Positions 16,494-33,261 of a DNA stretch of 64,000 nt are shown one piece after another. The notes under the pieces are model-generated. The model ran no database searches, was not told where the DNA came from, and saw nothing but the letters and a program-made list of their open reading frames with translations. The number at the start of each line of letters is the position of its first letter. Within the stretch, counting starts at the first letter, position 1. The position numbers were made by a program, and so were the translations under genes. This DNA is from Myxococcus dinghuensis (lineage in GTDB: Bacteria > Myxococcota > Myxococcia > Myxococcales > Myxococcaceae): NCBI RefSeq assembly GCF_024198235.1, contig NZ_JAKCFB010000016.1:62001-126000 (forward strand), read 5' to 3'.

Positions 16494-17174
16494 ATGACCC
16501 GCATCCTGATCATCGAGGACGAGCAGGACCTGGCCGGGCTCGTCGAGTACAACCTGCGCGCGGCCGGCTTCGACACGGAGACGGCGAACACCGGCGCGGG
16601 GGGACTGGCGCGCGCCCGGGCCAACCCGCCGGACCTGCTGCTGCTGGACCTGATGCTGCCGGACATCGCCGGCGGCGAGGTGCTGCGCATGCTCAAGCAG
16701 GACCCGGAGCTGCGCAAGACGTCCGTCATCATCGTCAGCGCCAAGGGCCAGGAGTCCGACCGCGTCCTGGGCCTGGAGCTGGGCGCGGACGACTACGTGG
16801 TGAAGCCCTTCTCCGTCCGGGAGCTGCTCCTGCGCGTCAAGGCGGTGCTGCGGCGCGCGGACGCCGAGGAGGGCCCCGCCCAGGTGCTCGGCGCGGGCGA
16901 CATCGCCCTGGACACCTCGCGCCACCAGGTGCGCGTGAAGGACGTGGAGGTGGTGCTCACCGCCCTGGAGTTCCGCCTGCTGCGCACGCTGCTGGAGCGC
17001 AGCGACCGGGTGCAGACGCGCGAGGTGCTCCTGTCCGACGTCTGGGGCATCCAGGCGGAGATCCACACCCGCACGGTGGACACGCACATCAAGCGGCTGC
17101 GCGAGAAGCTCGGCCCCGCCGGCGACATCATCGAGACGGTGCGCGGCGTCGGCTACAAGCTCAGCCCTCCCTGA
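16494..17174 (+). CDS. phoB: OmpR/PhoB-family response regulator
   Basis: A DNA-binding response regulator of 226 residues. The receiver (1-120) has phosphoacceptor D52 in LLDLMLP and a YVVKPF motif. The C-terminal winged helix (about 130-225) has LTALEFRLLRTLLER, TRTVDTHIKRLREKLG and RGVGYKL. It lies 9 bp upstream of a PhoR-type kinase, so the pair forms a complete two-component system. The PhoB label rests on close resemblance to PhoB/PhoP and the PhoR partner; a different signal is possible. Confidence 0.88.
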   Translation: MTRILIIEDEQDLAGLVEYNLRAAGFDTETANTGAGGLARARANPPDLLLLDLMLPDIAGGEVLRMLKQDPELRKTSVIIVSAKGQESDRVLGLELGADDYVVKPFSVRELLLRVKAVLRRADAEEGPAQVLGAGDIALDTSRHQVRVKDVEVVLTALEFRLLRTLLERSDRVQTREVLLSDVWGIQAEIHTRTVDTHIKRLREKLGPAGDIIETVRGVGYKLSPP

Positions 17175-17183
17175 CCCACCGCC

Positions 17184-18548
17184 ATGCCCCTGCGCTATAC
17201 GCTGCTGCCCCTGCTGCTCCCCGCGACGCTGGTGGGTGTGCTCGTGGCCGTGCTCGGCACGCCGGGCAACGCGGTGGCCGTGGCGCTCGTCACGCTCGCC
17301 GGCTCCCTCATGGCGCTGGGCCTCAGCCGCGGCGCGCTCCACCGCCAGCTCGACAGCCTGACGCGCAGCACCCGGGGGCTCGCCGAGGGCGCCGGGGGCG
17401 TGGCCCGTCCCGACCCGGACCAGCTCGAGGAGGTGGCCAGCCTCGAGGGCGCCATCGACTCGCTGCACGCGCGCATGTCCGCCCGCAGCGCGGAGCTGAC
17501 GCAGGAGTCGCAGACCCTGGCCGCGGTGCTGGACAGCATGGCCGAGGGCATCTGGGTGACGGACGCCGAGGGCACCGTGGTGCGCCACAACGACGCGCTC
17601 CGGCAGATGCTGCGCCCCGGCGGCGGCGGGCCCATCATCGGCCAGCGCCCCCTGGCCCTCATCCGCGACGACCAGCTGCACGACGCCGTCATGCGCGCCT
17701 GCCACGAGGGCGCCTCCAGCCGCCTGGAGCTGGCGCTCGAGGGGCTGTTCCCCCGGACGCTCGCCATCCGGGTGACGCCCGTGGGCCAGGACCTGCCGGG
17801 CAGCGCCGCCGTCTTCCACGACGTCACGGAGCTGCGCCGCCTGGAGAAGGTGCGCAAGGACTTCGTGGCCAACGTCTCCCACGAGCTGCGCACCCCCATC
17901 ACCGCCATCCGCGGCTACGCGGAGACGCTCCAGGGTGGCGCGCTGAAGGACGCCCAGGTCGCTCCACGCATGGTGGAGATCATCCACCGCCAGTCCGAGC
18001 GCCTGTCCGAGCTGGTGGAGGACCTGCTGGAGCTGTCCCGGCTGGAGTCCCGCGAGGTGAGCCTGAAGCTCACGGAGGTCTCCCTGGCGGAGGCCGCCGC
18101 CCGCGCCGCCGACACCGTGCGCCCCAAGGCCGAGGGCAAGGGCCAGACGGTTTCACTCCATGTCCCTGCGGACCTCGTGGCCGTGGGGGACTCTCGGGCG
18201 GTGGAGCAGGTGCTGCTGAACCTGCTCGACAACGCGGTGAAGTACACGCCCGCGGGCGGGCGGGTGGACGTGGACGGAGCGTGCGAGGACGGGCGGTGCG
18301 TGGTGCGCGTGCGGGACACGGGGCTGGGCATCGAGCCGCGCCACCTGTCGCGCATCTTCGAGCGCTTCTACCGGGTGGACAAGGGCCGCAGCCGGGACAT
18401 GGGGGGCACGGGGCTGGGGCTGTCCATCGTCAAGCACCTGCTCCAGGCCATGGACGGCGAGGTCAAGGTCGAGAGCCAGCCGAACGAGGGGAGCACCTTC
18501 ACGATTTTTCTGCCCCAGGCGGTCCCCGCGCGCTCGGCGACGGGGTAG
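17184..18548 (+). CDS. phoR: PhoR-type sensor histidine kinase
   Basis: A membrane histidine kinase of 454 residues with two N-terminal transmembrane helices (about 5-25 and 31-48) and almost no periplasmic loop. A PAS-like domain follows (about 108-215, AVLDSMAEGIWVTDAEG), then HisKA with H233 in NVSHELRTP and an HATPase with NLLDNAVKYTP and GTGLGLSIVKHLL. The lack of a sensor loop with a PAS domain matches PhoR, which senses through the Pst-PhoU complex. The pst-phoU genes lie 14 kb downstream beside a second, kinase-less PhoP-type regulator. Confidence 0.88.
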   Translation: MPLRYTLLPLLLPATLVGVLVAVLGTPGNAVAVALVTLAGSLMALGLSRGALHRQLDSLTRSTRGLAEGAGGVARPDPDQLEEVASLEGAIDSLHARMSARSAELTQESQTLAAVLDSMAEGIWVTDAEGTVVRHNDALRQMLRPGGGGPIIGQRPLALIRDDQLHDAVMRACHEGASSRLELALEGLFPRTLAIRVTPVGQDLPGSAAVFHDVTELRRLEKVRKDFVANVSHELRTPITAIRGYAETLQGGALKDAQVAPRMVEIIHRQSERLSELVEDLLELSRLESREVSLKLTEVSLAEAAARAADTVRPKAEGKGQTVSLHVPADLVAVGDSRAVEQVLLNLLDNAVKYTPAGGRVDVDGACEDGRCVVRVRDTGLGIEPRHLSRIFERFYRVDKGRSRDMGGTGLGLSIVKHLLQAMDGEVKVESQPNEGSTFTIFLPQAVPARSATG

Positions 18549-19568: not shown

Positions 19569-20087
19569 ATGACTCCTCGCGAACTGCCGCTCCTGCTGGT
19601 CCGCCACGCCGTGGCCGAAGACGCCCACGCGCTGGGCGACGGGGCCCGCGCCCTCACCCCCGAGGGCCGCGCCCTCTTCCGTCAGCACGCGCGCAAGCTG
19701 GCGCGCCTGACGCCGCTGGTGGGCATCTTCACCAGCCCCCTGGTCCGCGCCGTCCAGACGGCGGAGCTGCTCGCCGAGTGCTTCGGCCTGTCCCAGGTGG
19801 AGGTCCATCCCGCGCTGCTGCCCCGCAAGGGCGCGCACACGCGCATCCTCAAGCTGGCCCGGAGCGTGGGCCCGGGCTACGCCCTGGTGGGCCACAACCC
19901 GTCCCTCGAGCGGGCCCTGGCGCTCGCGCTGGAGGCCGGAGGCGACGAGGCGCCGGACAAGCTGCGCAAGGGCACGGTGGCCGCGCTCCAGCCCTCCGGG
20001 AAGAAGGGCTACCGGCTGGACTGGTGGGCCGCGCCGGGCCGGACGGTGAAGCACTTCGGACCGGAGGCGCTGACCCGGGCGCGCTAG
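19569..20087 (+). CDS. sixA: SixA-type phosphohistidine phosphatase
   Basis: A 172-residue histidine-phosphatase-superfamily protein with the catalytic R12-H13-A motif, TSPLVRAVQTAELL and the second histidine in LVGHNPSLE. Length and motifs match SixA, which removes phosphate from phosphohistidine on signalling or phosphotransfer proteins. It lies downstream of phoR and a phosphoesterase, but no clear link to that system is shown. Its end overlaps the convergent DUF1634 gene by 4 bp. Confidence 0.85.
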   Translation: MTPRELPLLLVRHAVAEDAHALGDGARALTPEGRALFRQHARKLARLTPLVGIFTSPLVRAVQTAELLAECFGLSQVEVHPALLPRKGAHTRILKLARSVGPGYALVGHNPSLERALALALEAGGDEAPDKLRKGTVAALQPSGKKGYRLDWWAAPGRTVKHFGPEALTRAR

Positions 20088-20515
20088 CCCTCCGCGGCCC
20101 CCAGGAGGAACGACACCAGCAGGAGGGCCAGCACCACGGTGGTGATGACGACGTAGAGCCGGTCGCGCTGCTGGCGGAAGATGAGCAGCGACAGCGCCAC
20201 GCGCGTCACCGGCACCGCCATCATCACCAGGAGGCCCGCCATGACGAAGGACTGGCCGCGCGCGGCCAGCGCCCCGGCCACCACGTCCGCCAGCCCGTGC
20301 GGCACCGGGTGCGGCGCGGTGAGCCGCTCCAGCGCCTCCGACGACACCAGGTAGTCCGGGTGGCGGAAGAACGTCACCAGCGTGCCCAGCGTCACCAGCG
20401 ACAGGCTCGCCAGCACGCCGTAGCGCAAGAGGTCGCTGATGAGCAGCTCCGGGACGAGCGGCGCGGCCTCGCCCGGCGTCGCGGTGGTGGCCCCCGGCTT
20501 CGGCGCGTCGTTCAC
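20084..20515 (-). CDS. DUF1634 membrane protein
   Basis: A 143-residue protein with three predicted transmembrane helices (about 32-50, 85-103 and 120-140), including LLRYGVLASLSLVTLGTLVTF and FVMAGLLVMMAVPVTRVALS, the DUF1634 pattern. It starts at GTG overlapping the TauE/SafE stop by 4 bp. DUF1634 genes are very often coupled to TauE/SafE-type exporters, and the encoded protein is probably an accessory subunit. The role has not been worked out. Confidence 0.82.
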   Translation of the reverse strand: MNDAPKPGATTATPGEAAPLVPELLISDLLRYGVLASLSLVTLGTLVTFFRHPDYLVSSEALERLTAPHPVPHGLADVVAGALAARGQSFVMAGLLVMMAVPVTRVALSLLIFRQQRDRLYVVITTVVLALLLVSFLLGAAEG

Positions 20516-21354
20516 GACATCCACCCCTTGCGCAGCATCTCGAAGGCCACCCACAGCAGCACGCCGACGAAGAGCGCGCGCAGCCACAGCGCGTTCACCC
20601 GGCCCATCAGGTAGCGCGACCCCAGCCACGCGCCCAGCGTGACGCCCACGCACACCGGCCCCGCGATGAACGGGTCGATGTGGCCCCGCGCGAAGTACAC
20701 GCCCGCGCTGGCCGCCGCCGTCACGCCAATCATGAAGTTGCTGGTGGCCGTGGACACCTTGAGCGGCAGCCGCATGGCCAGGTCCATGGCCGGCACCTTC
20801 AGCGCGCCGGAGCCGATGCCCAGCATCCCGCTCACCGTGCCCGCCACGTACATCAACCCCAGCCCCGCCAGCGGCCGGGTGACGCGGTACTCCACCTCGC
20901 GGCCCGCGGCCTCGTCCCAGTAGCTGCCGTGCAGCCCCAGCCGGTCCGCCAGCGCGTCGTCGGGTACCGGCGCGGCCTCCGCCGACCGCATGCGGCGCAG
21001 CATCACCAGCGCGGAGTACGCCATGACGGCGCCGAAGACGAGGTACACGCCCCGCCCGCCCACGCGGCCCGACAGGAACGCCCCGGTGAGCGCGCCCGCG
21101 GTGGTGGCCACCTCCAGGAACATGGCCACGCGCAGGTTGGCCATGCGCTCACGCACATAGGCCGCGGCCGCGCCGCTCGAGGTGGCGATGACGGAGACGA
21201 TGGACGCCCCCACCGCGTAGTGGATGTCCACCTTGAGCAACAGCGTCAGCACGGGGATGAGGATGAGCCCACCCCCGATGCCCAGGAGCGAGCCCAGGAG
21301 GCCCGCTCCAACGGAGATGCCGAGGACGACGAGCGTGAAGAGAAGGGGAGTCAT
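20512..21354 (-). CDS. TauE/SafE-family anion exporter
   Basis: A 280-residue polytopic membrane protein with two related halves. The glycine-rich GAGLLGSLLGIGGGLILIP in the first half and SGMLGIGSGALKVPAMD in the second are the signature of TauE/SafE permeases, which move sulfite, sulfoacetate or other organic anions. The start was set at MTPLLF; a GTG 11 codons upstream (21387) is also possible and neither has a clear Shine-Dalgarno. It forms a pair with the downstream DUF1634 gene. Substrate unknown. Confidence 0.88.
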   Translation of the reverse strand: MTPLLFTLVVLGISVGAGLLGSLLGIGGGLILIPVLTLLLKVDIHYAVGASIVSVIATSSGAAAAYVRERMANLRVAMFLEVATTAGALTGAFLSGRVGGRGVYLVFGAVMAYSALVMLRRMRSAEAAPVPDDALADRLGLHGSYWDEAAGREVEYRVTRPLAGLGLMYVAGTVSGMLGIGSGALKVPAMDLAMRLPLKVSTATSNFMIGVTAAASAGVYFARGHIDPFIAGPVCVGVTLGAWLGSRYLMGRVNALWLRALFVGVLLWVAFEMLRKGWMS

Positions 21355-21460
21355 GCGGCGTGGGGCCGCATCCTTCCCCTCCCCCACCGGAAATCAACCA
21401 GGACTCGCGTCCCGGTCAGGGCCGCCCGCTCGCCTGCCTGCTTCGGCGCGCCCCCGGCAA

Positions 21461-22222
21461 TCAGGTCCCGGCGACGGACAGGTGCCGGCCGTCGCCGTTG
21501 GCCAGGCCGTTCTCGTTGCTGGCGGCCGTCAGGCCGTCACCGGGGCTGAGCACGTCGCCGCTGAGCTCGCGCAGGAGCGCCTCGCCCACCAGCTCCGTCA
21601 TGGGGATGAACCGCCCGTGCGTGGAGCGCCACACGTGCACCTGGGCGCTGCCGATGTCGAACCACCACCCGTGCAGCCGCAGCTTGCCGGCGGCGACGCG
21701 CTCCTTCACCAGCGGGTAGCTGCCCAGGTTCTGAAGCTGCTGGAGGACGTTGAGCTGGGACAGCCGGTCGTACTCGGACAGGCCCTCGCCCACGCCGCTG
21801 CCCGCCTTCAGGGTGCGCAGCGACGCCTCGCCGTGCTCCAGCCAGCGCGACAGGTTGGGCGCGCCCGGCACCTTGCCGCCCGCCAGGACCGCCTTCATCG
21901 CGCCGCAGCTCGAGTGGCCGCAGATGACCACGTCCTCCACCTCCAGGTTGCTCAGCGCGAACTCCAGCGCGGCCGCCTCGGACTGGTCGCCCGTGGAGAC
22001 ACCGGACGCGTCCGACGGGGGCACCATGTTCCCCACGTTGCGCACGACGAACAGGTCGCCGGGGTCCGTCGACACGAGCAGGTTGGGCACCAGCCGGCTG
22101 TCGGAGCAGGAGATGAAGAGACAATCCGGGGACTGACCGTCGGCCAGACGCGCGAACATCTCCCGATAGGCGGGCCGGCCCTTGAGCTGGAAGTCCAGCA
22201 GACCACGAATGAGCTTCTTCAT
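21461..22222 (-). CDS. can: Beta-class carbonic anhydrase
   Basis: Carbonic anhydrase interconverts CO2 and bicarbonate. The 253-residue protein has all beta-class residues: zinc ligands C39, H103 and C106 (ISCSDSR, CGHSSCGA) and the D41/R43 dyad. It overlaps the end of the SulP transporter gene by ATGA. SulP-anhydrase coupling is a recurring arrangement for bicarbonate uptake and fixation in bacteria. About 30 C-terminal residues beyond the family core are of low complexity. Confidence 0.95.
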   Translation of the reverse strand: MKKLIRGLLDFQLKGRPAYREMFARLADGQSPDCLFISCSDSRLVPNLLVSTDPGDLFVVRNVGNMVPPSDASGVSTGDQSEAAALEFALSNLEVEDVVICGHSSCGAMKAVLAGGKVPGAPNLSRWLEHGEASLRTLKAGSGVGEGLSEYDRLSQLNVLQQLQNLGSYPLVKERVAAGKLRLHGWWFDIGSAQVHVWRSTHGRFIPMTELVGEALLRELSGDVLSPGDGLTAASNENGLANGDGRHLSVAGT

Positions 22223-23766
22223 TGGGCACCTTCGGAGGCGAGAGTGTTGGACGAAACCTGCGAACCGATGACTTGCTGCGAGGGCCGCGTCGTGCCGCTG
22301 CGGACCCAGACTTCCTCGAGCGACTCCATGGCGACCGAGCCACCCGTCTTGCGATACGTGTCGCTCCAGCTCTCGAGCGCCTCGAAGCCGGAGTGGTCCA
22401 GCGTGTCCACCGCGAGGTCGATCCTCACGCTCGCGCCCGGCGGCACCTGCGCCAGCGCCATGGACAACCGGGGCACGCCCACGAAGGTGAGCGAACCCGT
22501 CACCCGGACCTCGTATGCCCCCTGGACCTGGGCGACGTCGACCTGGACGCTGCCCAGACGCCACAACAACCGCAGCACCGCCACCAGCAATCCCAGCCCG
22601 ATCCCCGCGAGCAGGTTGATGCCGACGACGCCCGCCACCGTCACCGCGTAGACGAGCACCTCACCGCGCCGCGACAGCTCGCGGATGTGGTGCATGTTCA
22701 CCAGCTTCGCGCCGACGACCACCAGCAGCCCCGCCAACACCGTCAGTGGCACCAGCCCCGCCACATGCCCCAGCATGGTAACGAAGAGCAGCAGCCACAC
22801 GCCATGAAGGAGTGCGGAGGCACGCGACTTCGCGCCCGCCGCGATGTTCGCCGCGCTGCGGACGATGACGCCGGTGATCGGCAGGCCACCCACGAGCCCG
22901 GACACCGTGTTCGCCACGCCCTGCGCGAACAGCTCCTTGTCCAGGTTCGCCCGGGGCCCCGTGTGCATCTTGTCCGTGGCCACCGCGGACAACAGCGACT
23001 CCGCGCTCGCCACCAGTGCCAGCGACAGCACCGCCGTCACGAACACGCCCCAGTTGCCCGTGGGCAGCGCCGGCAACTGGATACTGCTGAACACATTGGC
23101 CGGCAGCTCCACGCGCGCCACGTCCGCGCCCCAGAACACCGACACCGCCGAGGCCCCCACGACCGCCACCAGCGGCGCGGGCACCAGCTTCAGCTTGCCC
23201 TTCGCCAGGAAGGGCCACACCACCATCAGCGCGATGGTCAACAGCCCCAGCGCCGCCGCGGGGCCGTGCAGGGAGAGGATCTGCTCCGGCAGCTCCTTCA
23301 CGTTCTGGAACGCGCTCGACTGGGGGCTGCCCCCCAGCACGATGTGGACCTGCCCCAGCACGATGAGGATGCCGATGCCCGCCAGCATGCCGTGAATCAC
23401 CGCGGGCGAGATGGCCAGCGCCGCCCGCGCGACCTTCAAGCCACCGAACAACATCTGCAACAGGCCCGCGGCGGCCACCGCCGCGCACGTCATGGCCAGG
23501 CCCATCTGCTGGATGAAGCCGAACACCATCACCGCCAGGCCGGCCGCCGGGCCGCTCACCTGCAGCGGCGCGCCGCCCAACATGCCCACCACCAGTCCAC
23601 CCACCACTCCCGCGATGAGACCGGACACGATGGGCGCACCCGACGCGAGCGCAATGCCCATGCACAGGGGCAGCGCGACCAGGAACACCACCAGGGAGGC
23701 AGGCAGGTCCGCGGCCAATGACTTCCAGGCCGGGCCAGCTCCCCCATGACTCGTCGACATCGCCAT
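22219..23766 (-). CDS. SulP-family anion (probable bicarbonate) transporter with STAS domain
   Basis: A 515-residue transporter with about 10-12 membrane helices (about 20-405) and a cytoplasmic STAS domain (about 415-495, containing DTLDHSGFEALES). Its start PASLVVFLVALPLCMGIALASGAP is the SulP signature. SulP proteins carry sulfate, bicarbonate or other anions. Coupling to carbonic anhydrase favours bicarbonate, as in BicA-type systems, but this is inferred. A GGAGG lies only 3 nt before the first ATG and 9 nt before a second ATG two codons later, so translation may begin at 23760. The operon is preceded by a sigma-54 promoter. Confidence 0.9.
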   Translation of the reverse strand: MAMSTSHGGAGPAWKSLAADLPASLVVFLVALPLCMGIALASGAPIVSGLIAGVVGGLVVGMLGGAPLQVSGPAAGLAVMVFGFIQQMGLAMTCAAVAAAGLLQMLFGGLKVARAALAISPAVIHGMLAGIGILIVLGQVHIVLGGSPQSSAFQNVKELPEQILSLHGPAAALGLLTIALMVVWPFLAKGKLKLVPAPLVAVVGASAVSVFWGADVARVELPANVFSSIQLPALPTGNWGVFVTAVLSLALVASAESLLSAVATDKMHTGPRANLDKELFAQGVANTVSGLVGGLPITGVIVRSAANIAAGAKSRASALLHGVWLLLFVTMLGHVAGLVPLTVLAGLLVVVGAKLVNMHHIRELSRRGEVLVYAVTVAGVVGINLLAGIGLGLLVAVLRLLWRLGSVQVDVAQVQGAYEVRVTGSLTFVGVPRLSMALAQVPPGASVRIDLAVDTLDHSGFEALESWSDTYRKTGGSVAMESLEEVWVRSGTTRPSQQVIGSQVSSNTLASEGAQ

Positions 23767-23783
23767 ACACCTCCACGAGAAGA

Positions 23784-23801
23784 CGCCACCCGACGGTGGC
23801 G
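23784..23801 (-). repeat. Hairpin in the leader of the SulP operon
   Basis: CGCCACC and GGTGGCG form a perfect 7-bp stem with a CGAC loop. It lies between the predicted transcription start and the SulP ribosome-binding site, so it could affect mRNA stability or translation. Confidence 0.5.
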
Positions 23802-23826
23802 CACGCCAAGTCTCGTGGGGCTGATG

Positions 23827-23841
23827 GCAACATGCGTGCCA
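23827..23841 (-). promoter_or_regulatory. Sigma-54 promoter (-24/-12) of the SulP-carbonic anhydrase operon
   Basis: On the minus strand the sequence TGGCACG-CATG-TTGC matches the sigma-54 consensus TGGCACG-N4-TTGC without mismatch, including the invariant GG (-24) and GC (-12) spaced correctly. Predicted start is near 23816, about 50 nt before the transporter ATG. The genes next upstream encode a sigma-54 activator and its kinase. Confidence 0.85.
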
Positions 23842-23905
23842 TGCCCGGGTGCGGGCTCCCCAGAGGGAAGCCGCTCATCCGGGGGCAGGCGGGCGATGCA
23901 AACAA

Positions 23906-23957
23906 TTTGAAGTGGGCGCGGCGGACTTCAAGAAACTTGAGGAAAGGAACTTGAAGT
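23906..23957. promoter_or_regulatory. Cluster of CTTGAAGT-type sites, probable enhancer (UAS)
   Basis: Three copies of an 8-mer lie together: TTTGAAGT (23906-23913), its inverse ACTTCAAG (23925-23932) and CTTGAAGT (23950-23957), plus a partial copy ACTTGA (23935-23940). They lie about 90-140 bp upstream of the predicted sigma-54 start, the usual enhancer distance. The likely binder is the adjacent NtrC-type regulator. The stretch is clearly richer in A/T than its surroundings. Confidence 0.65.
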
Positions 23958-23987
23958 CGCCCGGGGCCGGGGCGCGGGGCGCCCGCC

Positions 23988-25331
23988 TCAGGACTCCTCC
24001 AGCTTGCGGAGGAACGTGGGGTAGGACAGGCCCAGCACCTTGGCCGCCTCCATGCGCCGGCCCTCCAGCCGGCCGAGGACGTGCTTGACGTACAGCCGCT
24101 CGACCTCGTCGACCGGGCGGGGCGGCCCCGACACGACGAAGGCATCCGGGTCCACGGTGGCCGGCCCGTGGTGGCCCCGGGGCTCCAGGGCCTGCAGTTC
24201 CAGCGCGGGCCCCGGCTCCAGCACCAGCGCCCGCTCCAGCACGTTGCGCAGCTCGCGCACGTTGCCTGGGAAGGGGTAGCGCTCCAGGCGCGCGCGGGCC
24301 GCGGCGGAGAAGTCCACGGGGCGGCGCCCCAGCTCCGCGCACAGCTCCACGAGCAGCGACTCCGCCAGCGGCAGCACGTCCTCACGCCGCTCGCGCAGGG
24401 GTGGAATCTCCACGCGGAAGACGCTCAGGCGGAAGTAGAGGTCCTCGCGGAAGCGCCCCTCGGCCACCTCGCGGGTGAGGTCGCGGTTGGTGGCCGTCAC
24501 CACGCGCGCGTTGCTGGTCAATTCCGCCGTGCCACCCAGGCGGCGGAACGCCCCCTGGTCCAGGAAGGTGAGCAGCTTGGCCTGGAGGCTCAGCGGCAGC
24601 TCGCCGATCTCGTCGAGGAAGAGCACGCCCCCGTCGGCCACCTCCACCAGGCCACGGCGGGCCGCGCGCGCGTCCGTGAAGGCGCCGCGCTCGTGGCCGA
24701 ACAGCTCGCTCTCCACCAGCGCGGACGGCAGCGCCGCGCAGTTGACGTGGACGAAGGGCCCCGGCCCGCCCTGCACCGAGTACAGGTGCCGCGCGAGCAC
24801 CTCCTTGCCCGCCCCCGTCTCGCCGGTGATGAGCACCGGGCTGCGCGGCGCCTTGGCGATGCGCTCGACCATCTGCAGCGCGGCGAGCATCGCGGGCGCG
24901 CGGGGACGCAGGAGCCGGCGCCGCCCGCCCAGCTCGCTCTCCGCGCGCTGCAACCGCTCGTGCAGTTGCAGGTCCGCCGCCGCCCGCTTGGCGCGCAGCA
25001 CCAGGTCGTCCAGCTCCACCGGCTTGGACAGGTAGTCCCGCGCGCCCAGCTTGATGGCGTCCACCGCGCTGGCGATGTCGCCGTGCGCCGTCACCATCAT
25101 CACCGCCGTGTCCGGGAACTGCGCGCGCAGCTCGGGCAGGAAGTGGATGCCGTCCCCGTCCGGCAGGCGCCGGTCCAGCACCACCACCTCCGGCGCCTGG
25201 CGCGCGAGCGAGGTGCGGGCGTCGTGGAGCGAGTGCGCCACCGTGACGCGGAACCCCTCCTGCTTGAGCATGGTCGCCGCCAGCGAGGCGAAGGTCCGGT
25301 CGTCGTCCACCAGCAACAGATGGGTGCTCAT
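23988..25331 (-). CDS. NtrC-family sigma-54-dependent response regulator
   Basis: A 447-residue activator with a receiver (1-120, phosphoacceptor D53 in LDRRLP), an AAA+ domain (Walker A GETGAGKE at about 170-177, Walker B GGVLFLDE at about 234-241) and a Fis-type helix-turn-helix at the C terminus (about 410-447). The sigma-54 contact loop reads GAFTDA (216-221) instead of GAFTGA. It overlaps the kinase gene by ATGA. The sigma-54 promoter and repeat sites just downstream of its stop point to the SulP-anhydrase operon as its target; this is inferred from position. Confidence 0.93.
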
Positions 25332-27004
25332 GACGTGCGCTCCAGGGGCAGCCGCAGCGTGAACAGGCTGCCCTGAGGACGACGGGTATAGGTCAGACTG
25401 CCACCATGCGCCTCCACGGACGTGCGCGCCATGGGCAGCCCCAGGCCCACGCCCTTGGCCCGCCCCGTGGCGAAGGGCTCCCACAGCCGGGGCTCGAGCC
25501 GCGGGTCGACGCCCCCGCCGTTGTCCTCCACCAGCAGCACCGCCTCCCCTGCGTCCCTCGACAGGTTCACCGACACCCAGGGGGCGGAGCGCAGGCCCGT
25601 GTCCCTCGCCACCGCGCCGGCCTCCACCGCGTTGCGCACCAGGTTGTCGATGGCGGACACCAGCAGCGCGGCGTCCCCCTGCACGGTGAGCCCCTCCTCC
25701 AACGACGTGCGCAGCTCCACCGCCTCCGACTCCGGCAGCATCCGCACCGCCTGGAGCGCGTCCTCCACCAGCAGGTGCAGCTCGCAGCTGCGGCGCAGCG
25801 CCGCGCGCGGGGCGCCGAACGACAGCAGCGAGCGCGCCAGGTGCCCCAGCCGCTCCACCTGCGAGCGCAGGCCCCGCACCGGCAGCTCGCTGCCCGCGGG
25901 CGTCGCGCGCAGCACGGACAGCGCGGCCTGGATGCCGTTGAGCGCGTTCTTCACCTCGTGCGCGATGAGCGACGCCGCCGTGCCCAGCGCCGCCATCGTC
26001 TCCTGTCGGCGCAGCCGCTCCTCGGCCGCCAGGAGCGAACGGTACGAATGACGCAACAGCACCAGGAACAGCGCGAGCGTGCAGATGAGCAGCGCGATGT
26101 GGAAGGCCAGTTGACGCAGGAAGCGCGAGCGCAGGCTCGCCGTGGCGGCCTCCTCCTCCTCCAGCACCACCAGGAGCAGCTCGCTGCGCCCCACCCACGC
26201 CGCCGCGCCCATCATCCGCGCGCCGTCCAGCGTCACCGGGCCCGGCGCCTTCGCCAGCGCGCGGAGCTGCGAGGAGAAGTCCTCCGGGTAGGGCAGCGGC
26301 GGCGCCGGCAGGAGCAGCCGCCCCTGTGAGTCCATGAGGAACAGCGCCGTCTCCTCGGTGGCCCGCGTGGGCAGCGCCTCCGTGCGCACCTCCCCCAGCA
26401 GCACGCCCTTGAGCTCTCCGCCCTTGATCATCGGCACCGCGACGACGAGCGGCCCGCCCTCCCCCTCCATCAGGTCGATGGCCGGCGCGCGCCGGGCCAC
26501 CATCTGCTGGAACCAGGGCCGGCGGGTGATGGGGGACGCGCCCAGCGACATCCCCGGCGGGTCGCTCCACACGCGCTCGCCCCGGGGCCCCAGCAGCGCC
26601 ACGCCCTCCGAGAACAGCGACGAGTGGTAGAACGCGCTGTCGAGCAGCGCCCGCTCCGCGGGGGAGGCCCCGTCCTCGGGGAAGAGCGTCGGGTGCCCCG
26701 CCACGCGCGCCAGCTCCGCCTCCAACAACCCCAGGTGGACCCCCAGCGCGTCCGCCTGGACCCGCGCCTGGTTCGACAGGTGGTCCAGCAGCTCCTCGCG
26801 CGCGTTGCCCACGTCCTCCAGGTAGCCGAGCACCGGGCTCGTCAGCGCCACCACCCCCACCAGCCCCAACCCCAGGAGCGCGGACCGCCCCCCGCGGCGC
26901 TGCGCGTGCGCCAGCTCACCGGGCGTCGGCGTCAACGAGGGGACCGGCAACGTCACCGGCGGCGGCGGCTCGGGAGGCGACTGGGGAGGTTCGGGCGAGG
27001 TCAT
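25328..27004 (-). CDS. NtrB-like sensor histidine kinase with periplasmic sensor domain
   Basis: A 558-residue kinase. A Pro-rich N-terminal tail (1-30) is followed by TM1 (about 41-60), a large Cache-like periplasmic domain (about 61-298) and TM2 (about 301-317). HisKA has H349 in AHEVKNALNGI and the HATPase has DNLVRNAVEAG, DNGGGV and GVGLGLPMARTS. The H-box with VKN is typical of kinases that pair with NtrC regulators. The start was taken at MTSPEPP; an upstream GTG would add 17 residues. It forms an operon with the activator; the sensed molecule is unknown, though an anion or CO2-related cue would fit the neighbour genes. Confidence 0.9.
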   Translation of the reverse strand: MTSPEPPQSPPEPPPPVTLPVPSLTPTPGELAHAQRRGGRSALLGLGLVGVVALTSPVLGYLEDVGNAREELLDHLSNQARVQADALGVHLGLLEAELARVAGHPTLFPEDGASPAERALLDSAFYHSSLFSEGVALLGPRGERVWSDPPGMSLGASPITRRPWFQQMVARRAPAIDLMEGEGGPLVVAVPMIKGGELKGVLLGEVRTEALPTRATEETALFLMDSQGRLLLPAPPLPYPEDFSSQLRALAKAPGPVTLDGARMMGAAAWVGRSELLLVVLEEEEAATASLRSRFLRQLAFHIALLICTLALFLVLLRHSYRSLLAAEERLRRQETMAALGTAASLIAHEVKNALNGIQAALSVLRATPAGSELPVRGLRSQVERLGHLARSLLSFGAPRAALRRSCELHLLVEDALQAVRMLPESEAVELRTSLEEGLTVQGDAALLVSAIDNLVRNAVEAGAVARDTGLRSAPWVSVNLSRDAGEAVLLVEDNGGGVDPRLEPRLWEPFATGRAKGVGLGLPMARTSVEAHGGSLTYTRRPQGSLFTLRLPLERTS

Positions 27005-27122
27005 GGAGGGCTCGACCCCCGCGTTGTGACACAGCCCCCCGCCCCAGGGAACCACGCAGGACCGCGCTCATCTCCATTCTCGATTTTCGTGAATCACCCT
27101 CCACGTTGGCCTGACACCGACA

Positions 27123-27137
27123 ATGATTGACAATCAT
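27123..27137. promoter_or_regulatory. 15-bp perfect palindrome between divergent genes, probable operator
   Basis: ATGATTG-A-CAATCAT is a perfect dyad with 7-bp arms in the 235-bp gap between the kinase gene (minus) and the FG-GAP lipoprotein gene (plus). It lies 35 bp upstream of the candidate -35 box of the plus-strand gene and about 120 bp before the kinase start. A dimeric repressor or activator could bind here. Confidence 0.5.
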
Positions 27138-27171
27138 GCCACCGCGAAGCGCGCAGTACCTTTTGACTCAC

Positions 27172-27201
27172 TTGAAAGACTTTGACGCCGCTCACTATAC
27201 G
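27172..27201 (+). promoter_or_regulatory. Candidate promoter of the FG-GAP lipoprotein gene
   Basis: TTGAAA (27172-27177) and TATACG (27196-27201) are spaced by 18 bp in an A/T-rich patch, predicting a start about 30 nt before the ATG at 27240. An AAAGGTG at about 8 nt from that ATG is a suitable ribosome-binding site. Confidence 0.5.
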
Positions 27202-27239
27202 GGCGCATCACCATCCAAAACCAGACAAAGGTGACGCGC

Positions 27240-30089
27240 ATGGAATCCAGAAGAAGGCGGCAGGGCAGCATGTGGCAGGGACTCCAGTTGTCGGCGGTGG
27301 GACTGCTGGCGTTGACGGCCTGTGGCGAGACGCAGGCCCCGGAGGCCTCGGCGTTGGACACGCGGGAGGCGGCGGCGAACGGCGAATGTCAGGTCATCCC
27401 GCCCTTCGACCCCAACTTCGAGCCGGAGCTGGAGTGGGCCTGGACGGGCAGCCCGGTCATGCCCTCGCACAACCAGGTCATGATGACGCCCATCGTCGTG
27501 GACGTGAACGCGGACGGCGTCCCCGACGTCGTCTTCAGCAGCTTCACGGGCAGCAACTACACGACCAACGGCGTGCTGCGCGCCATCAACGGCGCGAACG
27601 GCAGCGACATCTGGACGGTGACGGACGCCAGCCTGCGCGTCCGCGGCGCGGCGAGCGTGGCCGCCGCGGACATCGACGGGGACGGGCTGGTGGAGATCTG
27701 CGCGATTCCGGAGAGCGGCACCGGCATCCTCTGCTTCGAGAACACCGGGGCGTTCAAGTTCCGCACCGCGGTGTCCTCGAACAACTGGGGTGGCGTGTCC
27801 TTCTCCGACCTGGACGGCGACGGCACGGTGGAGATCATCAACGGCAACCACGTGTTCAGCAACACGGGCGCGCTGAAGTGGTCGGCCCCTTCGGGTGTGG
27901 CCGGCCCGGTGGGTGGCATCAGCTACGCGGTGGACCTCGACGGGGACGGGCGCCAGGAGGTCATCATCGGCGCGAGCATCTACCGGTATGACGGCACGCT
28001 GAAGTGCCAGAACACCAGCGTCGGCGCCGCGCTCACCGGCGTGGCCAACTTCGACGCGGACCCCGCCGGCGAGGTCGTCCTCGTGCACGGCGGACGCGTC
28101 TCGCTGATGGATGACAACTGCGCCCTGCTCTGGACGCAGACGATTCCGGGCGGCGGCACGGGCGGCGCGCCCAACATCGCGGACTTCGACGCGGACGGGC
28201 AGCCGGAGATCGGCGTGGCCGGCGCCTCGCGCTACGCCGTCTTCGAGACCAACGGCACCGTGAAGTGGTCCAGCCCCACCCAGGACAACAGCTCCAACGT
28301 GACGGGCTCGTCCACGTTCGACTTCGAGGGCGACGGCAAGGCGGAGGTCATCTACGGCGACGAGGTCCGGCTGCGCATCTACGACGGCGCCACCGGCGCG
28401 GTGCGCTTCAACGTGCAGCACGCCTCCGGGACCACGTACGAGAACCCGCTCGTCGTCGACGTGGATGGCGACGACAACGCCGAAATCGTGGTGGCCGCCA
28501 ACAACTACGCGTTCTCCGGCCCCACCGGCATCCGCGTGTTCCGCGACCGCAAGGACGGCTGGGTGAACACCCGCCGCATCTGGAACCAGCACGCCTACTC
28601 CGTCACCCACATCAACGACGACGGCACCGTGCCCGCCAGCTACACCCCCAACTGGCTCACGCCGGGCCTCAACACCTTCCGCGCCAACACCCAGGGCAGC
28701 GGCAGCACCAGCCCCTTCGCCGCGGCCGACCTCGTCGTGAGCGAGGTGACGTCCGCGTGTGAGCGCGCCACCGGCACCCTCCGGCTGAACGCGCGCGTGG
28801 TGAACCAGGGCGACGCCGCCACCTCCGCCGGCATGCACGTGGCCTTCTATCTGGGCAACCCCGCCGCCGGGGGGACGCTGCTCGGCGTCGCCACGCTGAC
28901 CTCCGTGCTCCCCGCCGGGAGTGCCGCGCTCGTCACGCTCGCGCTCGCCACGCCGCCGGGTGGCACGGGCGACGTCTGGGCCGTGGCGGACGACGACGGC
29001 GCCGGCGTGGGCCGCGAGACGGAGTGCAACGAGACCAACAACACCCGCAACGCGCCGCTCGACCTGGCGTGCACCACCAACACGCCCCCCGTCGCCGTGT
29101 GCCGCGACGTCACCGTCGACGCCGGCGCCACCACGTGCAGCGCCTCCGCGAACGTGGACGACGGCAGCCATGACCCGGACCAGCACCCCGGCCCGTTCAC
29201 GGTCTCCCAGGCGCCCGCCGGTCCCTTCGCCACGGGCACCCACACCGTGACGCTCACCGTCTCCGACGGCCAGGACACCGACACCTGCACCGCCACCGTC
29301 ACCGTGGTGGACGTCACCCCGCCCACCATCGCCTGCCCGCCCGAGCGCATCGTCGACGCGACCGGCCCTGACGGCGCCTTCGTCACCCCCGCGCCCGCCA
29401 CCGCCGCCGACGCGTGCGGCGCCACCGTCAGCGGGCCCGCGGCCGGCGTCTACCCGCTCGGCACCACCGCGGTGACGTACACCGCCACGGACGCCGCCGG
29501 GCACAGCGCCTCCTGCACCACCGCCATCCACGTGGTGAAGCGCGACGCCACGCCCCCCAGCCTCGTCATGTGCGACGTGCCCCGCTACACGTCCGCCGCC
29601 CAGGTCAAGGCGTGCGGCTGGGCCACCGCCAGCCCCGGCGGCGCCCCCATCAGCGTCGTGCTGCTCACCATCGACGGCGGCGCGCCCATCCGCCTCACGC
29701 CGGACGCCGGTGGCGGCCACGCCGTCCTCTGGCTGGACCTGGCCGAGGGCCACCACACCCTCACGCTCACCGTCATCGACACCAACGGGGGCATCGCCAC
29801 CCAGAGCCGCGAGGTGACGGTGGACCGCACCGCCCCTGTCCTCGGCATCGTGTCCCCCGCCCCGGGTGACACGGTGCCCTGGACGGTGGACATCGTCTCC
29901 CAGGTGACGGACCTGACGCCCGTGCGCGTCACCGCCAACTGGATCACCAGCACGGACGTCCCCGCGGGCACGAGCGTCGCCACCGTCCCCGTGACGTTCT
30001 CGCGCGCGGGCGCCAACGTCGTCCTGATCCGCGCCACGGACGCGGCGGGCAACACCTCCGAGCAGGTGCTCGAGGTCGACGTCCAGTAG
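27240..30089 (+). CDS. Large lipoprotein with FG-GAP/VCBS repeats, CARDB-like and HYR domains
   Basis: A 949-residue surface or secreted lipoprotein. The signal sequence ends in LLALTAC with lipidated C28. Residues about 70-430 hold at least six Ca-binding FG-GAP/VCBS repeats with DxNxDG-type loops (DVNADG, DIDGDG, DLDGDG twice, DFDADG, DVDGDD), which should fold as a beta-propeller. A CARDB-like beta sandwich follows (about 500-615), then HYR/Ig-like domains (about 618-780, with paired cysteines) and further Ig-like modules to the end (ATDAAGNTSEQVLEV). This build suggests adhesion or surface binding. Known proteins of this type in myxobacteria have no settled function. Confidence 0.85.
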   Translation: MESRRRRQGSMWQGLQLSAVGLLALTACGETQAPEASALDTREAAANGECQVIPPFDPNFEPELEWAWTGSPVMPSHNQVMMTPIVVDVNADGVPDVVFSSFTGSNYTTNGVLRAINGANGSDIWTVTDASLRVRGAASVAAADIDGDGLVEICAIPESGTGILCFENTGAFKFRTAVSSNNWGGVSFSDLDGDGTVEIINGNHVFSNTGALKWSAPSGVAGPVGGISYAVDLDGDGRQEVIIGASIYRYDGTLKCQNTSVGAALTGVANFDADPAGEVVLVHGGRVSLMDDNCALLWTQTIPGGGTGGAPNIADFDADGQPEIGVAGASRYAVFETNGTVKWSSPTQDNSSNVTGSSTFDFEGDGKAEVIYGDEVRLRIYDGATGAVRFNVQHASGTTYENPLVVDVDGDDNAEIVVAANNYAFSGPTGIRVFRDRKDGWVNTRRIWNQHAYSVTHINDDGTVPASYTPNWLTPGLNTFRANTQGSGSTSPFAAADLVVSEVTSACERATGTLRLNARVVNQGDAATSAGMHVAFYLGNPAAGGTLLGVATLTSVLPAGSAALVTLALATPPGGTGDVWAVADDDGAGVGRETECNETNNTRNAPLDLACTTNTPPVAVCRDVTVDAGATTCSASANVDDGSHDPDQHPGPFTVSQAPAGPFATGTHTVTLTVSDGQDTDTCTATVTVVDVTPPTIACPPERIVDATGPDGAFVTPAPATAADACGATVSGPAAGVYPLGTTAVTYTATDAAGHSASCTTAIHVVKRDATPPSLVMCDVPRYTSAAQVKACGWATASPGGAPISVVLLTIDGGAPIRLTPDAGGGHAVLWLDLAEGHHTLTLTVIDTNGGIATQSREVTVDRTAPVLGIVSPAPGDTVPWTVDIVSQVTDLTPVRVTANWITSTDVPAGTSVATVPVTFSRAGANVVLIRATDAAGNTSEQVLEVDVQ

Positions 30090-30151
30090 CCCGGGCCAGC
30101 GCCTCCCGCATCGAGCCGTCCCGTCGTTCGCCGCGGGAGGAGGACACGACG

Positions 30152-30181
30152 GGGCCCGGGCGCATGCGCGCGCCCGGGTCC
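30152..30181 (+). terminator. Strong GC hairpin after the FG-GAP gene
   Basis: CCCGGGCGC (30155-30163) and GCGCCCGGG (30170-30178) pair perfectly around a 6-nt loop, and three more pairs including one wobble extend the stem to 12 bp. There is no T-run, so it is a terminator-like element that may need Rho. It separates the lipoprotein gene from the phosphate locus. Confidence 0.5.
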
Positions 30182-30287
30182 GCGTCACCCGCCTGCCTGC
30201 CTGCCCACCTCCGCGAGACGCCGCTTACACAATCGTTGCAAACGCGTCACGCGTACGGAAAGCAAGGGGCGCAGACTCCGCGGCGTC

Positions 30288-30989
30288 ATGGCCCACGTCC
30301 TCATCGTCGACGACGAACCCGATCTCGCACAGCTCATCGACTTCAACCTGCGTGATGCGGGGTTCTCCACCCAGCTCGCCGGGACCGGAGAAGCCGCGCT
30401 CGCCTCGGCGCGGGAGCGACCTCCCGACCTGGTCCTGCTGGACCTGATGCTCCCGGACATGTCCGGCATCGACGTATGCCGGCAGCTTCGGGCCGGGAGC
30501 CAGTCCCGCGGCCTGCTCATCGTCATGCTCACCGCCAAGGGCGAGGAGGCCGACCGCATCCGAGGCTTCGAGGTCGGCGCGGACGACTACGTCGTCAAGC
30601 CCTTCAGCGTCCGGGAGCTGGTCCTGCGCCTCAAGGCCATCCTCCGGCGCGGGGGCCCCGCCCAGGCCGCCGCCGGCGCGACGGCCGCCCCGCTGGCGCT
30701 CGGCAGCCTCAAGCTCGACCTGTCCGCGCACCGCTTCTACGTCGACGAGAAGGAGGTCCCCCTCACCGCGCTGGAGTTCCGGCTGCTGGGGCACCTCATG
30801 ACCCGCACCGGCCGCGTCCAGACGCGCGAGCAACTGCTCGAGGAGGTCTGGGGCCTGTCCTCGTCCCTGGAGACGCGCACCATCGACACCCACGTCATGC
30901 GCCTGCGCGACAAGCTCGGCCCCGCGCGCGGCCTGCTGGAGACGGTGCGCGGCGTGGGCTACCGCATCGTCAGCCCCGAGGCCGGTTGA
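30288..30989 (+). CDS. Orphan PhoP/PhoB-type response regulator of the pst locus
   Basis: A 233-residue OmpR-family regulator. The receiver has phosphoacceptor D52 in LLDLMLP and YVVKPFSVREL; an Ala-rich linker (about 122-135) leads to a winged helix with LTALEFRLLGHLM, TRTIDTHVMRLRDKLG and RGVGYRI. No kinase gene is adjacent. It lies directly before a porin and the pstSCAB-phoU genes, so a role in phosphate control is very likely. Myxococcus xanthus is known to have an orphan regulator, PhoP4, that takes its signal from a distant kinase; this gene may be the counterpart, with the PhoR at 17-18.5 kb as a possible donor. Confidence 0.85.
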   Translation: MAHVLIVDDEPDLAQLIDFNLRDAGFSTQLAGTGEAALASARERPPDLVLLDLMLPDMSGIDVCRQLRAGSQSRGLLIVMLTAKGEEADRIRGFEVGADDYVVKPFSVRELVLRLKAILRRGGPAQAAAGATAAPLALGSLKLDLSAHRFYVDEKEVPLTALEFRLLGHLMTRTGRVQTREQLLEEVWGLSSSLETRTIDTHVMRLRDKLGPARGLLETVRGVGYRIVSPEAG

Positions 30990-30998
30990 TTGCGGATT

Positions 30999-31070
30999 GT
31001 TTCGTGACGCGGATGTTTCACGGCGTCCCTCAAACAGCCACGGACGTTACCTAGAAGCCAGTTTCGTGAC
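30999..31070 (+). promoter_or_regulatory. Direct repeats upstream of the phosphate porin, possible Pho-type boxes
   Basis: GTTTCGTGAC occurs twice, at 30999-31008 and 31061-31070, with a related TGTTTCACGG at 31015-31023 (16 bp period to the first). The second exact copy overlaps the proposed GTG start of the porin. The spacing does not match the 11-bp E. coli Pho box, so this is only a candidate site for the adjacent PhoP-type regulator. Confidence 0.4.
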
Positions 31071-32367
31071 CCTCCCGAAACCCTTCCCGACGCGTCGTGT
31101 TGTCGCCACCCTCCTCACGCTGTCCCTGAGCCCCGCATGGGCCCAGGAGACCACGCCGGTCCAGGAGTCCGCCACGCAAGCCACCGAGCCCGCCCCGGAG
31201 AACGCCACCCAGGAGGCGGGTCTGACGCCCGACACGGACGTCACCCCGGCGGAGCAGATCTCCGCCCTCGATGAACGGATGACCACCGCCGAGGGCAAGG
31301 TCGCCGCCCTCGAGGAGCAGAACGTCGAGACCAAGAACGACCTGTCCGCCCTCAAGAAGCTCAAGATCTCCGGCTACGTCCAGGCCCGCTACCAGGACCA
31401 GGAGAGCCTGGACGCCACCGGCGCCGGCGGCTTCAGCCGCTTCAGCGTCCGCCGCGGCCGCATCAAGACGACCTACACCACGGACTGGGCGCAGTTGATG
31501 CTGCAGATCGACGCGGTGCCCACCACCGGCGTCACGGTGCGGGACGCCGAGGCCACCCTCTACATCCCCGGCACCCACCAGCAGATGTCGCTCACCCTCG
31601 GACAGATGAAGTGGCCCTTCGGCTACGAGGCCGTCCAGTCCTCCAGCGACCGCGAGATGCCCGAGCGCACCCGCGTCGTGCGCGCCTTCCTCCCCGACGA
31701 GCGCGACCGCGGCATCAAGTTCGCCGGCACCTTCCTCGAGGGGAAGTTCAACTTCAGCGCCGGCCTCTTCGACGGCAACGGAATCTTCAATCAGGGATTC
31801 ATCGGCACGGACAACGACAAGGAGAAGGACTTCATCGGCCGGGCGGGCTTCGACCTCGGCTGGCTGTCGGGCGGCGTGTCCGGCTGGTACGGCCACTCCA
31901 TTGCCAAGGGTCCCAACGATGCGTATCGCAAGGCCTACGAGAGGGACCGCGTGGCACTGGATGCGCAGATGTACCTGGACGTGCTCCCGCTGGGCGGCAC
32001 CGCCCTCAAGGGTGAGTACATCACCGGCAAGACGTACGCGAAGAGCTCCGGGGACACGAAGGTCGAACAGTTGGGGGTGCCCGCGAGCGGCTGGTACGCG
32101 CTGCTCGTCCAGAACGTGGGCCTCTCCGACGCGGTGGCCGTGCGCTACGACTTCTTCGACCCGGAGAACGGCCGGAAGAACAGCGCCAACGACGGCAAGC
32201 CGCACGGCAACAACTCCGTGGGCACGCTGGGCGTCGCCCTCCTCCACTACTTCGGCGAGAACATGAAGGTCACCGCCGCCTACGAGATGCCGATGACGGG
32301 CGCGCCCGACGGCGCCAAGGACCCGCACGACAACCTCTTCACCCTCCAGATGCAGGCCAAGTACTAG
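31066..32367 (+). CDS. OprP/OprO-type phosphate-selective porin
   Basis: A 433-residue outer membrane beta-barrel protein. A signal peptide (about 1-26, ending AWAQ) precedes a short acidic coiled coil (about 55-95, ISALDERMTTAEGKVAALEEQ). A porin domain begins at KISGYVQARYQDQ and alternates strands up to the C-terminal LQMQAKY. The domain pattern fits the phosphate-selective porin O and P family. The start is taken as GTG at 31066 because it gives the signal peptide a normal length; an ATG at 30997 is in frame. It lies upstream of pstS and should admit phosphate. Confidence 0.85.
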   Translation: MTLPKPFPTRRVVATLLTLSLSPAWAQETTPVQESATQATEPAPENATQEAGLTPDTDVTPAEQISALDERMTTAEGKVAALEEQNVETKNDLSALKKLKISGYVQARYQDQESLDATGAGGFSRFSVRRGRIKTTYTTDWAQLMLQIDAVPTTGVTVRDAEATLYIPGTHQQMSLTLGQMKWPFGYEAVQSSSDREMPERTRVVRAFLPDERDRGIKFAGTFLEGKFNFSAGLFDGNGIFNQGFIGTDNDKEKDFIGRAGFDLGWLSGGVSGWYGHSIAKGPNDAYRKAYERDRVALDAQMYLDVLPLGGTALKGEYITGKTYAKSSGDTKVEQLGVPASGWYALLVQNVGLSDAVAVRYDFFDPENGRKNSANDGKPHGNNSVGTLGVALLHYFGENMKVTAAYEMPMTGAPDGAKDPHDNLFTLQMQAKY

Positions 32368-32397: not shown

Positions 32398-33219
32398 ATG
32401 AAGGCCTTCCTCCAGTCTCTCGTCGTCGCCGTCCTCCTCGCCCTGCCGCTCGCGGCGCACGCGGGCAACCTCACCGTGAAGGGCTCGGACACCATGGTCA
32501 TCCTCGGCCAGCGCTGGGCCGAGGAGTTCATGAAGAAGAACGCGGCCACCAAGGTGCAGGTCACCGGCGGTGGCTCCGGCGTGGGGCTCGCCGCCCTCCA
32601 GAACGGCACCACCGAGATCGCCATGTCCAGCCGCGAGATGAAGGACGCGGAGAAGCAGAAGCTGCGCTCGCGCTACAACACCACCGGCACGGAGGTCCCC
32701 GTCGCCAAGGACGGCGTCACCTTCTACGTCCACGAGGGCAGCCCGGTGAACTCGCTCACCGTGGAGCAGTTGCGCGGCATCTACGTGGGTGACGTCACCA
32801 ACTGGAAGCAGGTGGGCGGCCCGGACGCGCCCATCATCGTCTACTCCCGCGAGAACTCCTCCGGCACCTACTCCTTCGTCAAGGACCACGTCCTGGACGG
32901 CGAGGACTACGCGGCCTCCGCCCAGACGCTGCCCGGCACCGCCGCGGTGGTCAACGCCGTCTCCAAGGAGAAGAACAGCATCGGCTACGGCGGCGCCGCC
33001 TACGCCAAGGGCATCAAGGAGCTGAAGATCAAGGTCGGCAACGAGGAGATCGCCCCCTCCGCGGAGAACATCAAGACGGGCAAGTACCCCCTGTCTCGCG
33101 ACCTGTACTTCTACCTGCGCAACAAGCCGGCCGGCGACGCGAAGGCCTTCATCGACTTCGCCCTGTCCCCGGAAGGCCAGGCGCTGGTCACCAAGGTGGG
33201 CTACTTCCCGGTGAAGTGA
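32398..33219 (+). CDS. pstS: Phosphate ABC transporter substrate-binding protein PstS
   Basis: A 273-residue periplasmic binding protein with a cleavable signal peptide (about 1-22, ending AAHAG). Phosphate-binding segments are KGSDTM near the N terminus, GGGSGVGLAAL, AMSSREMK and YSRENSSGTYSF. AGGAG lies 11 nt before the ATG. It belongs to the shorter PstS group common outside the enterics. It delivers phosphate to PstCAB. Confidence 0.95.
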   Translation: MKAFLQSLVVAVLLALPLAAHAGNLTVKGSDTMVILGQRWAEEFMKKNAATKVQVTGGGSGVGLAALQNGTTEIAMSSREMKDAEKQKLRSRYNTTGTEVPVAKDGVTFYVHEGSPVNSLTVEQLRGIYVGDVTNWKQVGGPDAPIIVYSRENSSGTYSFVKDHVLDGEDYAASAQTLPGTAAVVNAVSKEKNSIGYGGAAYAKGIKELKIKVGNEEIAPSAENIKTGKYPLSRDLYFYLRNKPAGDAKAFIDFALSPEGQALVTKVGYFPVK

Positions 33220-33261
33220 CGCACGCCGTCACACGAATGTCACGCGAGGCCCGGAGTCACT

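Follow-up and report, generated by a model that had tools for sequence, protein, structure and literature searches.

A candidate upstream activating sequence of tandem palindromes between an NtrC-type regulator gene and a sulP-carbonic anhydrase operon in Myxococcus dinghuensis

Three palindromic repeats downstream of an NtrC-type regulator gene of M. dinghuensis very probably form an upstream activating sequence (UAS), with two stronger operators (sites B and C) and a weaker one (site A), where the adjacent regulator would activate sulP and a carbonic anhydrase gene via sigma-54. The sites, their symmetry, spacing and conservation, their co-occurrence with the regulator and the one detectable target were established computationally. 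While this type of switch is well known, the sites and the apparent single target are new. In bacteria with very many sigma-54 activators, they give a two-component system that seemingly serves one operon a defined operator that can be tested, and they would tie sigma-54 control to an operon for an anion transporter and a carbonic anhydrase. No description of this UAS, of the regulator or of sigma-54 control of a SulP-carbonic anhydrase operon was found in the open-licence PMC literature.

Genomic context of the repeats

The window, i.e. the whole analysed stretch of 64 kb, belongs to a genome of 10.4 Mb. On its minus strand, genes for a histidine kinase and an NtrC-type regulator are followed by a gap of 221 bp and by genes for a SulP protein, a beta-carbonic anhydrase and a TauE/SafE permease. 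The repeats sit inside this gap, directly past the stop codon of the regulator gene. The features are, in order of transcription:

25328-27055, minus strand: membrane histidine kinase; start codon uncertain, perhaps at ~27004
23988-25331, minus strand: NtrC-type response regulator with REC, AAA+ (with GAFTDA) and Fis-type HTH; presumed UAS-binding protein
23941-23955: site A, TTCAAGTTCCTTTCC on the minus strand, imperfect palindrome and weakest of the three; centre at ~-133; one-base overlap with site B
23927-23941: site B, CTCAAGTTTCTTGAA on the minus strand, palindrome; centre at ~-119
23897-23911: site C, TTCAAATTGTTTGCA on the minus strand, palindrome; centre at ~-89; distal half outside the interval first annotated
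23826-23841, minus strand: sigma-54 -24/-12 element TGGCACGCATGTTGCC; predicted start at ~23815
22219-23766, minus strand: SulP-family anion transporter; presumed first gene of the target operon
21461-22225, minus strand: beta-carbonic anhydrase; presumed second gene of the operon, overlapping the sulP stop codon
20512-21387, minus strand: TauE/SafE-family permease; next in line, putative member of the transcript

The SulP protein scored above the Pfam cut-off for PF00916 but below the NCBIfam equivalog cut-offs for BicA (154.2 vs 880) and DauA (174.9 vs 614), and it also remained below the cut-off of TIGR00815 (150.8 vs 380). Three SulP paralogues are reported for M. xanthus in the available part of PMC3924187. 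A sulfate permease of this species, MXAN6505, is named in the accessible text of PMC5131308; no link between it and the SulP of the window was found.

The repeat unit is a 15-bp palindrome

According to the first-pass annotation, three 8-mers of one family and a half-site lie within 52 bp, about 90-140 bp upstream of the predicted start (~23815), and this description could be confirmed. The 8-mer TTTGAAGT is located at 23906-23913 (plus strand) with one mismatch to CTTGAAGT, which itself occurs at 23925-23932 (minus strand) and 23950-23957 (plus strand), and the half-site CTTGAGG lies between the latter two. The surrounding patch is A/T-rich as claimed, with a GC content of 46-48% compared to 70.7% for the window; 61-bp stretches that are equally A/T-rich make up 0.03%.

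A cluster of this kind could also be produced by chance or by codon bias, as members of the 8-mer family (≤1 mismatch) are 3.5 times more common in the window than in shuffled sequence (49 vs a mean of 14), and single copies therefore mean little. However, this is the sole place in 64 kb with three members within 52 bp, no such cluster occurred in 60 first-order Markov controls of 64 kb each, and the observed density of the 8-mers predicts only ~0.025 clusters. Moreover, the sites are kept in all 34 SulP loci described below, and a matrix built from other loci puts those of the window on top. With conservation excluding chance, the probability of such an artefact is practically negligible.

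For comparison, 52 distinct loci with a regulator of at least ~58% identity were collected, 34 of them with SulP next to the regulator and 18 without. A motif search without symmetry constraint was carried out on 24 hand-chosen loci of these 52. It returned 58 sites in 24 loci with 1180 bits from 300 starts, compared to at most 296 bits in 20 shuffled sets with 40 starts each. The 58 sites do not give an unbiased rate, since eight non-SulP loci were picked for sites visible by eye and the other ten were omitted. Tested for symmetry, the recovered matrix gave r 0.91 for a 15-bp centre, while other centres reached at most 0.38. Thus, the repeat unit is the 15-bp palindrome TKMAAR-N3-YTTKMA, which had initially been parsed wrongly. 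The originally proposed unit TTGAAGT-N11-ACTTCAA was found exactly in only two of the 52 loci (L001 and L002) and joins the halves of neighbouring palindromes, namely the right half of one and the left half of the next. A variant, TTAAGT-N11-ACTTAA, takes its place in four M. xanthus-group loci among the 34 SulP loci. In addition, the interval 23906-23957 omits the distal half (23897-23902) of the promoter-proximal palindrome.

Exact 6-bp inverted repeats were tried as an alternative way to find the unit and rejected, as none of the spacers stood out clearly among the 34 SulP loci. Spacer 3 was present in seven loci (3.1 in shuffles) and spacer 11 in twelve (2.7 in shuffles), while spacers 5, 7, 9 and 18 each occurred in 14-16. 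The words with spacer 11 were TGAAGT (L001, L002), TTAAGT (the four M. xanthus-group loci) and other words in the remainder; with spacers 16 and 18, nine loci showed repeats made up of halves of these two sites, A and B. Many exact repeats pair the halves of neighbouring sites or fall elsewhere, and for the former reason the motif search was used in their stead. The 3-bp centre is singled out by the degenerate matrix and not by exact inverted repeats.

A second matrix was derived from 18 sites of the eight non-SulP loci. With it, the three sites of the window ranked 1-3 in 64 kb (scores 19.0, 15.8 and 15.3), followed by 12.2 for the next match; the best score on the reversed sequence was 14.2.

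A further copy of the repeat had been proposed near the promoter of an FG-GAP gene. CTTGAAAG is indeed present at 27171-27178, but as a related site it did not hold up: it is a single match with a score of at most 10.6, below the 14.2 of the reversed sequence, and no match was found in the scanned flanks of relatives, several of them short. The FG-GAP gene lies beside the kinase gene in only one of nine relatives with longer flanks (G011). Given this and the weak match, the copy was not counted. The element may instead be the -35 part of an ordinary promoter, TTGAAA-N18-TATACG, which was recognised by eye and is not part of the promoter scan output.

Inverted repeats directly behind a stop codon could alternatively act as RNA, i.e. 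as a terminator or attenuator that ends the kinase-regulator operon, and the RNA of the window does fold better than its shuffles (z -3.0), as does that of L018 (z -3.5). Still, z-values between -1.4 and +1.4 were obtained for four of six folded orthologous stretches; the stems are not the same from locus to locus, and L012 is almost stemless. No terminator-like site was found, and no Rfam family matched at gathering scores in 20000-31500. A function as RNA is thus highly improbable.

Promoter and geometry

The -24/-12 match TGGCACGCATGTTGC at 23827-23841 (minus strand) is the only exact one in 64 kb. With one mismatch allowed, three matches were found where 4.8 are expected; at this chance level, the element on its own would be no evidence unless it is conserved. 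Such conservation was observed: in an alignment of the gene-oriented gap of 22 loci, the -24/-12 element and the upstream blocks are conserved with much else being variable, and the element is present in 22 of 22 aligned loci and, with at most one mismatch, in all 34 SulP loci.

The main pair of sites has a spacing of 30-33 bp in all 34 SulP loci. The GG of the -24 region follows 67-71 bp after the start of the last site in 30 of them and 80 bp after it in the other four. In the window, the dyad operators are helically phased and centred at -133, -119 and -89 from the predicted start, within the ~80-150 bp upstream that are usual for a UAS. Counted from the -24 region, however, site C is only ~64 bp away, closer than the 80-150 bp regarded as typical in the available part of PMC7910581.

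The geometry varies in some relatives. The four loci with a UAS-promoter distance of 80 bp (L003, L005, L007 and L009) exceed the usual 67-71 bp by 9-13 bp. In the M. xanthus group (L015, L016, L018, L022, L057 and L059, the last from M. xanthus strain AM003), 24 bp separate the third site from site B rather than 13-14 bp, which suggests an independent origin or shift of the third operator.

Conservation and co-occurrence with the regulator

The first-pass annotation had interpreted the repeats as a UAS for an NtrC-type activator and had named an alignment of relatives as a check. The tandem pair is conserved upstream of the -24/-12 element in 34 of 34 SulP loci and occurs together with the adjacent regulator, in agreement with this interpretation. 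These 34 loci fall on one side of one branch of the regulator tree and hence do not represent independent events. Of the 28 loci not used to train the matrix (trained on 24 of 52), 21 have the pair, although their independence is partial, since many are closely related to loci of the training set.

A sequence model of the B-C pair matched 24 of 25 genomes of the same genus and none of 16 genomes from other families of the order. In the exceptional genome (G020), searches for the HTH of the regulator (E up to 1e-6) and for this SulP (E up to 1e-20) both came back empty. The regulator is located beside the UAS in all 24 genomes that carry it (19 + 5); five genomes (G001, G006, G007, G018 and G023) gave no match in the nucleotide search, yet their UAS lies 40 bp from an HTH-coding match. 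The close named relatives found with the regulator are mostly from Myxococcus, Pyxidicoccus, Archangium and Corallococcus. One further locus (L060, BNCN01000006.1) is titled Comamonas sp. KCTC 72670, but shares the sequence downstream of the regulator with the same-genus genome G024, and the title looks wrong.

Adjacency alone is not binding, and the UAS could mainly serve another activator that uses the sulP promoter; according to the available parts of PMC9765219 and PMC11841059, NtrC-type activators with paired or tandem sites are numerous in myxobacteria. However, such an activator would have to accompany the regulator in each of the genomes studied, including the 24 same-genus genomes with both and G020 with neither. 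A nearly equal operator also accompanies sister regulators at another class of genes (11 of 18 loci), the recognition-helix region is identical in 39 of 52 regulators, and the sites of NmpR and Nla28 have a different sequence. Another activator as the main user is therefore clearly improbable, and the adjacent regulator is preferred as the binding protein.

Number of targets

With the tandem model, 150 of 8098 first-look candidates in the M. dinghuensis genome were scored, and one strong place was obtained (40.4 bits, E 3e-9). Among these scored candidates, the next matches were the adjacent region of site A (E 0.05) and five others with E of at least ~0.1. Of 46 degenerate palindromes in this genome, only the two at the UAS are close together. 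Single degenerate sites are not enriched genome-wide (46 vs 79 for the reversed pattern) and thus cannot define a regulon, so that only the tandem pair is informative. Three SulP matches were detected in the genome, and the UAS coincides only with the copy in the window. Given the one tandem place, the regulator looks dedicated to the sulP-carbonic anhydrase operon as far as can be judged from sequence. In another genome, a weak match to the UAS model away from the sulP locus (G005:C19:78298-78330, L172; E 0.013) points to a possible second target there.

Regulator and histidine kinase

The regulator contains the domains PF00072, PF00158, PF25601 and PF02954, all above the gathering score. This combination of a receiver, an AAA+ domain for sigma-54 activation and a Fis-type HTH is that of the NtrC family. 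In the tree, the 34 SulP-linked regulators are separated by one branch (support 95/89) from the 18 others. The recognition-helix region reads LGLSYPTFL(R/K) in 39 of 52 regulators and differs by a few residues in the others; its good conservation fits a shared operator.

In place of GAFTGA, the L1 loop has GAFTDA in 50 of 52 regulators, GSFTDA in one and GAFTSA in another. Within this regulator family, the motif that contacts sigma-54 is thus nearly fixed in the variant form GAFTDA. This form is listed among the variants that keep activity in the accessible text of PMC4641369.

Among the best NCBIfam matches of the regulator was AtoC with 361.5 (cut-off 714), and ZraR followed further down with 273.7 (cut-off 760). 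Because these scores are far below the cut-offs, an assignment as AtoC or ZraR equivalog was rejected. The kinase likewise matched AtoS (126.7 bits) and ZraS (101.0 bits) far below the family cut-offs. Its sensor domain appears to be Cache-like, based on a weak Pfam match below the cut-off and on the predicted fold. The best 50 matches listed in a fold search with the sensor were kinase cores and long multi-domain chains and gave no clue to a ligand.

Proposed mechanism and comparison with known systems

By analogy with the NtrC family, the kinase encoded upstream would phosphorylate the adjacent regulator, whose dimers would bind to sites B and C, which are separated by about three turns of the helix, and the AAA+ ring would assemble there. 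The ring would then loop to the sigma-54 polymerase poised ~70 bp further on at the -24/-12 element and remodel this polymerase by ATP hydrolysis, so that sulP and the carbonic anhydrase gene would be switched on. As a plain guess, the signal might be the supply of inorganic carbon or of another anion.

The enhancer of enteric glnA, bound by NtrC, consists of tandem dyads separated by about three turns of the helix; it serves a -24/-12 promoter and lies ~100-140 bp upstream of the transcription start. The UAS of M. dinghuensis resembles it in the tandem dyads, their spacing and the promoter type, but differs in its operator TKMAAR-N3-YTTKMA, in its location in an A/T-rich patch of a GC-rich genome and in its one detectable target.

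Two regulators of M. xanthus were considered for comparison. In the available part of PMC11841059, NmpR sites are given as GCGCA-N5-TGCGC, with several target operons demonstrated in gel-shift and reporter assays. NmpR is similar as an NtrC-type response regulator of the same phylum with paired palindromes upstream of sigma-54 promoters, and the gap of 15 bp between sites B and C corresponds to its preferred inter-site gap of 14-15 bp as stated there. The half-site and the length of the centre are different in the present case, however, and there is one detectable target instead of the several operons of that account. Nla28 recognises tandem half-sites CT(C/G)CG(C/G)AG and has a large regulon according to the accessible parts of PMC9765219 and PMC7910581. 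It shares with the present system the occurrence of repeats upstream of myxobacterial sigma-54 promoters, but differs in the sequence of the sites, in their arrangement as tandem half-sites and in the size of the regulon, as far as these sources describe it. An identification of the window's sites as NmpR or Nla28 sites was rejected, since the recovered matrix differs in both sequence and centre. The resemblance to AtoSC and ZraSR consists in their being among the best NCBIfam matches; the scores are far below the cut-offs, and the target genes are others.

Sister regulators at efflux loci

Of the 18 loci without SulP, eleven (L070, L072, L073, L074, L075, L081, L082, L083, L014, L019 and L021) carry similar pairs with 21-32 bp between the sites, and in 11 of 11 the pair is directly followed by an outer-membrane efflux gene (PF02321). 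The best palindrome of these sister loci is CTGAAAG-N3-CTTTCAG. Nine regulator loci lacked a pair beside the regulator, and a scan of the whole locus revealed one in two of them (L070 and L081), located ~2.7 and 3.2 kb beyond the regulator and immediately in front of the outer-membrane efflux gene. Both are included in the count, with the stretch supplied from this earlier scan, but not in the matrix. No pair was found in the other seven of the 18 loci, in the stretch scanned or in the whole fetched locus. In L072, L075 and L082, genes for CusA/CzcA-type permeases follow, which are cut by the ends of the loci and score below the full-length cut-off.

A -24/-12 match is present in seven of the eleven efflux-linked loci, at a distance of 59 bp in six and of 69 bp in L014, and absent in four. 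The steps between these distances and the 67-71 and 80 bp of the SulP loci correspond to about one helical turn. Taken together, the UAS-promoter distances of 59, ~69 and 80 bp among relatives are a naturally occurring test of looping and helical phase.

One regulator-operator module may have been moved between the unrelated jobs of metal-RND-type efflux and the SulP-carbonic anhydrase operon, although we consider this rather unlikely. The recognition-helix region and TKMAAR-N3-YTTKMA would have been largely kept, with the loop changed by approximately whole helical turns. Zinc is the usual cofactor of beta-carbonic anhydrase, and under such a scenario a metal such as zinc, and not inorganic carbon, might still be what the SulP-carbonic anhydrase system responds to.

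Flanking genes

The gene of the FG-GAP/HYR repeat protein (27231-30089) is divergent from the kinase gene; it occupies the same place in G011, but not in eight other relatives. In the stretches 16494-18548, 30288-30989 and 32398-35177 of the window, two OmpR-type response regulators and a PhoR-like kinase were named by eye, together with phosphate ABC transporter-like genes (pstS, pstC and pstA) that were recognised in the same way.
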